A stretch of DNA of 22,246 nucleotides, taken from positions 1 through 22,246 of the IMG/VR virus record IMGVR_UViG_3300021378_000181, one strand, 5' to 3'. Below are positions 554-22,246 of this stretch, in pieces. Both the position numbers and the translations under genes were made by a program. The notes beneath the pieces were generated by a model. That model did no database searches, was not told the DNA's origin, and was given only the letters and a program-made list of their open reading frames with translations. This DNA is from a virus. Position 1 is the stretch's first letter; each line of letters starts with the position of its first letter.

Positions 554-592
554 ATTTTTCTTTTATTGTTTATTTTATTATGTTTATTAAAT

Positions 593-658
593 TTAACAGT
601 TGCAACATGTACATTGACATGATTTACCACAACTACATTCTTTACAATTACATTTCAT
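593..658 (-). CDS. 21-residue Cys-rich, metallothionein-like micropeptide
   Basis: ATG at 658 opens 21 codons ending in TAA at 593. Nine residues are Cys (positions 3, 5, 8, 10, 14, 16, 18, 19, 21), arranged as CNC, KEC, CSC, SCQC, CTCC and CNC. The opening MKCNCKECSCGKSC resembles the C-x-C-K-E-C-x-C core of vertebrate metallothioneins. The ORF fits the operon: it begins 15 nt after the stop of the upstream gene, has an A-rich leader (AAAAAATAGAAACAGAT), and is followed 39 nt later by the fibre start. A thiolate metal-binding role, either in the infected cell or as a small virion component, is an inference. Chance is unlikely to give nine Cys in 21 codons in AT-rich sequence, but expression is unproven. 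Confidence 0.6.
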   Translation of the reverse strand: MKCNCKECSCGKSCQCTCCNC

Positions 659-673
659 ATCTGTTTCTATTTT

Positions 674-1030
674 TTAACCTACTTCCCAAACTCTAGTTTC
701 ACCTTCCCATAATCTTGTATCTTCATTCCATATAAAGTTTGGTGCAGGTGGAACTCCGTTACATGCCTCATCAGCAATTGCATACCACCAAGAACCGTTT
801 ACAGGTTGAGTTAAGTTATAATAATTAGCAAGAGCAATTACCCATGAACTATTCACAGGAGTTGTTACACCTAATTGAAAACATAGTGTTTGAAGCCATG
901 ATCCGTTTACAATTGTAGTTGCTCCTAAATGTATTGCATATGCAGAGATCCAGCTTCCGTTGTTAGGTGCTGTAACTGCACCACCACTGGCACATTCTAC
1001 ATAATCTTTCGTTACTGATTTAATATCCAT
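674..1030 (-). CDS. Small virion-type protein with four 18-residue Trp repeats
   Basis: This 118-residue protein carries four tandem units of exactly 18 residues, marked by N-(G/S)-S-W at W27, W45, W63 and W81, with a consensus near VNGSWxxAxAxxLGxTTP. A Pro-rich turn follows (NGVPPAPN), then a Trp-rich tail with a duplicated W-E-x-x-T-R motif (DTRLWEGETRVWEVG). There is no signal peptide or membrane helix. Its place between the holin-like gene and the fibre suggests a tail or baseplate component, or an adhesin, but I do not recognise a named family. The start is set by the ATG at 1030, preceded by a TATATTT box at exactly 8 nt. That position implies a short or absent leader. Confidence 0.75.
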   Translation of the reverse strand: MDIKSVTKDYVECASGGAVTAPNNGSWISAYAIHLGATTIVNGSWLQTLCFQLGVTTPVNSSWVIALANYYNLTQPVNGSWWYAIADEACNGVPPAPNFIWNEDTRLWEGETRVWEVG

Positions 1031-3444: not shown

Positions 3445-3936
3445 ATGGAAAAAAAGATAAAGTTTGGTGAATTTGAGTGCAATGTCACTACAAAGCTCTA
3501 CGGATTAGATGATCCAATTGTAAAATTTGTAATAGGAAAAATGGGATCCTTAGATTGGACTGATTATAAATTGTATGTACATGGAAGCATTTTAAATGAC
3601 TCTCCTGCTAATGATATAGATTTTACTATTACAGGTCCACAAGATCCTACACGAGTTAACGACTTGCTTAGAGACTGTGTTAGATGTGGTTATGAAACTA
3701 ATGTACAAGTTGATATTAAGTTCTTGTTAAGTGGTGAACTATTTGACTTTCCTTCTCATACACCTGGTGATAAGCACTCATGTATGTATGCTCACTATGC
3801 TCCTTCAATAACCGTTGATGGAACTACCTATGATTATGCGCAAAGATTTAGTGGCTATTGGATCACCCAAAAAACATGGCCTAGTGCAAAATCTTATCTA
3901 TCTCCACAATCTCCAGTCTTAATTGAATGGCACTAA
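3445..3936 (+). CDS. Minimal nucleotidyltransferase-fold protein, lone plus-strand gene
   Basis: The 163-residue protein shows the signature of the DNA polymerase beta-like nucleotidyltransferase fold. G47-S48 is followed by the metal-binding pair D57 and D59 (VHGSILNDSPANDIDFTI), and the third acidic residue is probably D90 (VQVDIKFLL). Members transfer NMP groups to proteins, RNA or small molecules; the substrate here is unknown. A His/Cys-containing segment (HTPGDKHSCMYAHY) follows the core. No other gene in the window is on the plus strand. It has a short AT-rich upstream region (CTAATATATATTCT before the ATG) and a hairpin terminator 4 nt after the stop. It therefore looks like a self-contained insertion (moron) in the structural operon. 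Confidence 0.7.
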   Translation: MEKKIKFGEFECNVTTKLYGLDDPIVKFVIGKMGSLDWTDYKLYVHGSILNDSPANDIDFTITGPQDPTRVNDLLRDCVRCGYETNVQVDIKFLLSGELFDFPSHTPGDKHSCMYAHYAPSITVDGTTYDYAQRFSGYWITQKTWPSAKSYLSPQSPVLIEWH

Positions 3937-21530: not shown

Positions 21531-21552
21531 CAAAATAGTTTTTTGTAAGCAT

Positions 21553-21585
21553 AAAAAAAGAAGGACCCCTTTCGGAATCCTTCTT
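21553..21585 (-). terminator. Strong intrinsic terminator after the fibre gene
   Basis: The minus strand forms a 12-bp stem (AAGAAGGAUUCC with GGGGUCCUUCUU, including two G-U pairs) closed by a GAAA tetraloop, followed by a run of U. The G-U pairs become A-C mismatches on the plus strand, so it works leftward only. It would end the main structural transcript. Confidence 0.85.
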
Positions 21586-21693
21586 CAATCAAAAAATATA
21601 AATATAAAATATTACGCCTCCAATCAAAAAGGCAGTTCTTTGTTTAAAAAGGCGAACCAACCTTTGTTATTATACATTTAAATTTAATTTTGT
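21586..21693. other. Short untranslated tail between fibre stop and terminator
   Basis: This AT-rich stretch of 108 bp has no ORF. On the minus strand it contains two copies of GCCTTTTT and a possible weak stem CGCCT/AGGCG. It is most likely the 3' untranslated part of the fibre transcript. Confidence 0.4.
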
Positions 21694-22246
21694 TTAAGCT
21701 ATTCTAATCTTAACTGCACCACTTGTATGATACACACCACCTAAAGGTATTCCTCCAGCTGCTGCCGCTGTATCATCTGCATAATCAATGTTAGCATAAT
21801 CTGCAATTTGTAATAAGTTTACAGTTGTTGTATCAGCTGTACTAGCAGTAACTCCTTCTCCTAATGCTACTGAGTTGTTTGCTGATGCAGATGAATCTTT
21901 ACCTATTGCAACTGAACCTATACCTAGAGCAGAAGATGTATTACCCATTGCAATTGAGTCTTGTGCAGTTACAGTTGTAGAGTATGTACTAGTTCCTATA
22001 AAGATACTATTAGAAGCAGTACCTGGAGTTAATCCACGAACTCCAATATTAATACTGTTTGCACCTTGTGCTATAGCATTTTCACCTATAGCTACTGATT
22101 CTGATCCAAAAGCTTTAGCATCTCGTCCATACGCTGCACCATTACTAGCCGATGCTTCAGCGTTAACTCCTACACCTACACCAAAGGATGCACTTGCAAT
22201 TGCTCCAAAACCTATTGCAATTCCATATTGCCCAGCTGCTGTTGCT
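21694..22246 (-). CDS. YadA-like phage fibre, C-terminal part (continues across the end join)
   Basis: The stop is at 21694 and the frame is open to the right window edge. Bases 21966-22246 repeat 1-281 in the same frame, so this is most simply the C-terminal portion of the gene that starts at 553. Further YadA-head repeats appear (SSALGIGSVAIGKDSSASAN, NSVALGEGVTAS). A C-terminal cap follows: ANIDYADDTAAAAGG and IPLGGVYHTSGAVKIRIA. This ending is of a kind I associate with marine phage fibres and probably serves trimerisation or tip formation. A terminator lies 108 nt downstream. One residue differs between the two copies of the repeat: Ala here, Ser in the left copy, within a repeat unit. 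Confidence 0.75.
   Translation of the reverse strand, partial: ATAAGQYGIAIGFGAIASASFGVGVGVNAEASASNGAAYGRDAKAFGSESVAIGENAIAQGANSINIGVRGLTPGTASNSIFIGTSTYSTTVTAQDSIAMGNTSSALGIGSVAIGKDSSASANNSVALGEGVTASTADTTTVNLLQIADYANIDYADDTAAAAGGIPLGGVYHTSGAVKIRIA
21966..22246. repeat. Terminal direct repeat, right copy (matches 1-281)
   Basis: Identical to 1-281 apart from 22092 (c for a) and 22150 (c for t). Removing one copy leaves a 21,965-bp map with an intact fibre frame. Confidence 0.9.

Follow-up and report, generated by a model that had tools for sequence, protein, structure and literature searches.

Can a reading frame of only 21 codons, nine of them for cysteine, be a genuine gene, and what would its product do in a phage-infected cell? 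We met this frame in the window, by which we mean the whole stretch of 22,246 nucleotides that was analysed. The window is an IMG/VR virus record, the contigs of that collection being computational predictions, and portal, terminase and tape-measure genes are present in it. It ends in a direct repeat of 281 nt with 2 mismatches (1-281 and 21966-22246), which leaves a genome unit of about 21,965 bp, and its portal is approximately 30% identical to the portal of Nonlabens phages. Taken together, the terminal repeat, the three phage genes and the Nonlabens-like portal suggest that the window is most likely the nearly complete genome of a Bacteroidota phage.

The frame is located at 593-658 on the minus strand (ATG 658-656, stop 595-593); the original prediction placed it correctly and omitted the strand. 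It encodes the peptide MKCNCKECSCGKSCQCTCCNC, whose spacing is C-x-C-x2-C-x-C-x3-C-x-C-x-CC-x-C-stop. The description of the frame as packed between a Trp-repeat gene and a fibre gene behind an A-rich leader also stands: all three are co-directional, and the frame lies 15 nt downstream of the gene for a Trp-repeat protein of 118 aa (674-1030, minus strand) and 39 nt upstream of the start (553, minus strand) of a fibre-like gene with IGxxAxA repeats, both of which serve here as context. The 15 nt that separate the Trp-repeat stop codon from the peptide ATG (659-673, minus strand) form a leader with A at -6, -12 and -13, and G rather than A at -3. The fibre gene spans the terminal-repeat junction, with its 5' part at 1-553 and its 3' part at 21694-22246. 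The Trp-repeat protein has no PHROG match; its repeats centre on NGSW, its length varies among relatives, and some of these carry a long C-terminal extension (e.g., 341 aa in contig L009). Elsewhere in the window, a lone plus-strand frame of 163 aa (3445-3936) stands among large genes that are otherwise all on the minus strand, and a hairpin, GAAGGA...TCCTTC, between A and T runs (21550-21600) resembles a two-way terminator and sits in a non-coding stretch of about 600 nt past the end of the fibre gene.

The search for relatives of the peptide covered the whole viral collection by cysteine spacing alone, and it returned unrelated contigs with a frame of 20-22 aa built on the same plan. A more specific pattern gave at least 120 stretches in viral contigs of IMG/VR and, among 84,980 prokaryote genomes, 22 stretches, comprising 21 in Bacteroidota and one poly-Cys artefact; abundances obtained from these collection scans are lower bounds. 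Poly-Cys matches in two viral contigs (L083 and L251) and in Idiomarina (L312) were spurious and were discarded. In the large carrier phages that were searched whole the gene is single-copy. A tblastn search of the peptide against cultured phages gave no match, and low-complexity masking may hide matches in such a search; a scan of five named phage records for the pattern also gave none. All loci fetched together hold 130 distinct peptides of 20-23 aa, with 125 distinct cores. The nine cysteines keep a fixed spacing across the 130, one Cys-to-His replacement excepted, and in 129 of them the stop codon follows directly on the last cysteine. Cysteine makes up 42% of the 2751 residues, which include no F or W, one Y and two H. 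The cysteines are arranged as four CxC units, the terminal C-x-CC-x-C included; N or D mostly precedes the second and the last cysteine, and G-T/K-S often precedes the fifth. An example of the chromosomal version is MDCNCKSCNCNNSCDCSCCDC. One contig (L150, minus strand, about 795-930) encodes a 36-aa version with 13 cysteines, MRNRQNCNCENCKCQKACNCMKCNCSKSCDCACCDC, which appears to have arisen by duplication within the family peptide, as in modular metallothioneins.

A pattern that demands nine cysteines will return peptides with nine cysteines, and the samples that matter most are those assembled on other grounds; in these the spacing holds as well. The genus of one carrier, a marine flavobacterial genus, was searched with 2 mismatches allowed and thus without conditioning on all nine cysteines. 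The peptide was found in 18 of 25 genomes (0.8-1.3 Mb), always at 0 mismatches; in the remaining seven the neighbouring pirin gene is missing from the assembly or lies at a contig end. Across the 18 genomes the first and second positions of the cysteine codons vary in none of the nine columns and the third position varies in all nine, while the non-Cys codons are variable at all positions. In T4-like phages the slot was defined solely via a neighbouring 163-aa gene, and 78 loci were collected. The peptide is present upstream of this gene in 31 loci and entirely absent from 47. Thirty of the 31 peptides have all nine cysteines and one has the sixth replaced by histidine; this peptide, on a phage contig of 181,663 bp (L475), is the only family member seen with a replaced cysteine, and the codon is CAC. 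Histidine is another metal ligand, and the replacement lends indirect support to the predicted binding of d10 metals in a metal-thiolate cluster. In a scan that required the first six cysteines only, every peptide found continues with x-CC-x-C. The reverse scan, for the C-terminal half, found the N-terminal half in 119 of 127 distinct frames, a set that includes loci fetched by the full pattern, and the remainder were unrelated Cys-rich frames. A pattern search with 3 mismatches in 396 Flavobacteriales genomes was unusable, as its matches were TGY/GCT repeats.

These observations indicate that the frame is a real gene of a previously unannotated micropeptide family in marine Bacteroidota and their phages, where the marine origin of the carrier cell genomes is taken from record titles. 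The original prediction had called for a conserved short frame with its cysteines kept, and this is what over 100 other viral contigs and the Bacteroidota genomes contain. It had also named degraded or frame-shifted cysteine codons in relatives as an outcome that would speak against a gene; where we looked, the gene is either intact or cleanly absent.

The leaders point in the same direction. Among 133 distinct leaders, A occurs at -3 with a frequency of 0.83, at -6 with 0.77, at -12 with 0.80 and at -13 with 0.74, and across -10 to -14 it accounts for 65-80%; on the same strands the frequency of A is 0.35-0.41 at all ATGs and 0.44-0.64 at the starts of long frames. A Shine-Dalgarno-like motif is found in only one of the 133. 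For Flavobacterium johnsoniae, a member of a phylum without Shine-Dalgarno sequences, A at these same positions is reported to promote initiation (PMC6847099). The match between the leader profile and these initiation determinants supports the view that the micropeptide is translated and that the probable hosts are Bacteroidota. For the capsid protein of the T4-like carriers, the closest named phages infect Prevotella, Tenacibaculum and Chryseobacterium. In-frame stops close upstream leave no N-terminal extension, and there is no signal peptide; lacking a signal sequence, the peptide is expected to stay in the reducing cytosol and should be both cytosolic and reduced. Under such conditions the thiols of CxC-rich sequences coordinate metal in preference to pairing as disulfides, and a peptide of this kind with fixed spacing is expected to bind thiophilic metals.

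The gene is found in several different settings. Besides the site between Trp-repeat and fibre genes, it occurs with a 3TM holin gene (PF11351) upstream and genes for a FAD-dependent oxidoreductase (PF07992) and an AAA_28 protein downstream; in T4-like phages a putative capsid-region gene and a zinc-ribbon-like gene enclose it; and in further phages it is near baseplate-region genes. On marine flavobacterial chromosomes the setting is conserved: a Na/Ca exchanger gene and glnA flank one end of the peptide gene, and lipoprotein and pirin genes flank the opposite end; glnA and some of the phage gene names were assigned by eye from sequence. In streamlined marine flavobacteria (L303, L306, L309 and others) the peptide is preceded, at a distance of about 30 nt and on the same strand, by a conserved gene of 119 aa, which may belong to one operon with it. 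No metal-linked gene, such as an efflux pump or a metalloregulator, is a constant neighbour across the contexts.

The distribution among close phage relatives is patchy. Among 80 loci of window-phage relatives, collected via an upstream 192-aa gene, the peptide is present in only two near-identical contigs; judged from these 80 alone, the frame would have passed for a chance one, a verdict overturned by the whole-collection scan for cysteine spacing. In twelve relatives only a short A-rich spacer separates the Trp-repeat stop from the fibre ATG, and a segment of about 103 nt that carries the peptide is missing (556-658, minus strand; the junctions are ambiguous in the A-rich spacer). Judging from the occupied and empty sites, this segment is apparently a single-gene insertion or cassette. 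In some T4-like loci, likewise, the micropeptide gene alone is missing, and the peptide is nearby in just 12 of 71 loci of the FAD-dependent oxidoreductase. Because the gene is missing from many close phage relatives (47 of the 78 T4-like loci, 59 of the 71 oxidoreductase loci and the other window relatives), it is accessory in phages. We had considered an obligate link to the oxidoreductase as a possible peptide-modifying enzyme, and rejected it on the scarcity of the peptide at the enzyme loci and on the cell copies, which are without the enzyme. The oxidoreductase itself, of about 440 aa, is found in large phages (L164, L203, L231 and many others); dehydrogenases of Campylobacter phages and of phage contigs from the human gut share 25-29% identity with it.

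We infer from the cysteine pattern that the micropeptide binds metal in a metal-thiolate cluster. The explanation that we favour, to which we assign a probability of roughly three in four, is that the family encodes a peptide that is translated, stays in the cytosol and buffers metal through thiolate ligation in the manner of a metallothionein, from a gene that occurs as a single-gene cassette in Bacteroidota phages and is retained on the chromosomes of some streamlined marine flavobacteria. The product would be a stand-alone peptide of 20-23 aa, in which nine thiols in the four CxC units and the CC pair surround a small d10 metal cluster, made up either of three divalent ions, for instance Zn, or of several Cu(I). 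Like a metallothionein, it would act as a buffer or sink for Zn and/or Cu. Phages would carry the cassette in late-gene operons, the Trp-repeat/fibre site included, and the neighbours being late genes, the peptide is probably made late in infection. In the infected cell it would then bind Zn or Cu and could protect thiol- and metal-sensitive processes during this late phase.

Four alternative explanations have to be weighed against a metal buffer. The frame might be a conserved DNA or RNA element, or a chance frame, instead of a peptide gene. Its small size would fit, and two of the four folds tested are mildly more stable than shuffled sequences; however, the fold of the window copy is no better than its shuffles (z 0.39), there is no Rfam match, length changes are whole codons, start and stop are kept, and the contrast between fixed first and second and variable third codon positions is that of a coding sequence. 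Nor does chance readily produce such a frame: 300 simulated windows of the same dinucleotide content gave about 59,000 small frames of 15-40 aa, with a maximum of 7 cysteines and none with nine. We regard this explanation as hardly credible. If the peptide is accepted as real, its extreme cysteine content might instead reflect a reservoir of thiols, or a store of cysteine, that buffers oxidants and contains no defined metal cluster, and in about 50 of 139 loci the FAD-dependent oxidoreductase lies just downstream. Most loci of that enzyme are without the peptide, however, and the fixed spacing of all nine cysteines, together with the Cys-to-His replacement, indicates metal geometry. A mere thiol reservoir thus seems unlikely.

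The remaining two explanations accept metal binding and differ in its purpose. The original prediction included a metal-bound virion tip beside the fibre, and a peptide residing in the particle near fibre or baseplate and holding a structural metal would agree with the window copy, placed in a structural operon between two putative tail/fibre genes, and with the copies in other phages that adjoin capsid- or baseplate-region genes. The wider survey did not bear this out. The gene adjoins many different genes elsewhere and is tied to no one structural gene, a holin or the FAD enzyme being the neighbour in other phages; in bacteria it is chromosomal and lies at a distance from phage genes; and close relatives whose fibre region is arranged in the same way are without the peptide. 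A role at the virion tip is therefore unsupported, and we consider a virion component quite improbable. The peptide might also be a metallochaperone, zinc donor or sequestering factor that serves a specific partner, for example phage zinc-ribbon proteins, or that acts against a host metal-dependent defence. In T4-like phages 9-17 nt separate the end of the micropeptide gene from the next gene, whose product carries a CxxC...CxxC zinc-ribbon-like motif; yet this neighbour stands without the peptide in the 47 empty loci, and no partner is common to all contexts, which makes a dedicated partner very improbable.

A general metal buffer thus remains our preferred reading. Beyond it, we lean, if only slightly, towards a broader picture of a mobile micro-gene: a family shorter than the 26-residue fungal metallothioneins and the first of its kind in phages, whose cassette would have moved between the late operons of unrelated Bacteroidota phages, which would be fixed as near-universal in one streamlined marine flavobacterial lineage, and through which phages may control Zn and Cu in the cells they infect. 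Whatever its function, the gene is widespread and strictly conserved in phages of an important marine bacterial group and in those bacteria, and it was missed by annotation because it is only 21 codons long. The pairing of occupied with empty sites makes it a clean case of a single micro-gene that viral genomes gain or lose. Should the peptide bind metal, it would rank with the smallest of known metallothioneins, as a minimal metal-cluster peptide from nature, and would open the control of metals in phage-infected cells to direct tests.

How the micropeptide relates to known metallothioneins can be judged from sequence features. It has those of metallothioneins in the broad sense, namely low mass, very high cysteine content, conserved CxC and CC units and few aromatics. 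Profile searches of Pfam, NCBIfam, PHROG and PDB gave nothing significant for the family, and in the open-licence literature we found no paper on phage or viral metallothioneins. In these terms the micropeptide is metallothionein-like in every feature that sequence can test, yet falls outside every named metallothionein family with which we compared it.

The bacterial metallothioneins of the SmtA/PflQ2 type (PF02069) resemble the micropeptide in being bacterial and cytosolic, and in PflQ2 nine cysteines and one histidine bind three Zn (PMC7387436). No Pfam or NCBIfam match to PF02069 appears up to E 10. The SmtA/PflQ2 type uses histidine ligands, whereas only two of the 130 micropeptides contain a histidine, and no SmtA-type operon with a metalloregulator was seen at the micropeptide loci. 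Metallothioneins of this type are clearly longer proteins. The only profile matches, weak and non-significant, are to plant metallothioneins: Metallothio_2 (PF01439), matched by 3 of 22 members with a best E of 2.4, which is far short of the curated cut-off, and the wheat Ec protein (2kak) at E 9.1. Plant metallothioneins share short CxCGxxCxC stretches with the micropeptide, but are much longer and multi-domain.

The likeness to a vertebrate metallothionein core, to which the original prediction drew attention, holds for architecture: the vertebrate beta domain (M3Cys9) also has nine cysteines, is CxC-rich and has a high cysteine content, and M3 clusters with nine cysteines are documented in animals (PMC10612145). 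It does not extend to detectable sequence homology. The beta domain comprises 30 residues within a protein of 61 aa and has another spacing; neither phmmer with the peptide nor the family profile matches MT1 or MT2 in PDB, a search in which human MT2 and the Neurospora metallothioneins, as positive controls, find their own relatives. Against the family profile, human MT2 scores above most of its own shuffles and far below the members.

The family 8 copper metallothionein of Neurospora crassa (PDB 1t2y; about 26 aa, 7 Cys) is, like the micropeptide, tiny, consists of nearly nothing but CxC units, is free of aromatics and contains a [CxC]-x3-[CxC] core. Its full spacing, [CxC]-x5-[CxC]-x3-[CxC]-x2-C, differs from the [CxC]-x2-[CxC]-x3-[CxC]-x-CC-x-C of the micropeptide, and its score against the family profile, which 9 of 500 of its own shuffles reach, is far below those of the members. 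The two thus have an architecture in common; their sequence similarity, weak though above most shuffles, falls short of evidence for homology. Fungal metallothioneins of 26 aa were once held to be the shortest (PMC4755600); at 20-23 aa, the micropeptides are shorter.
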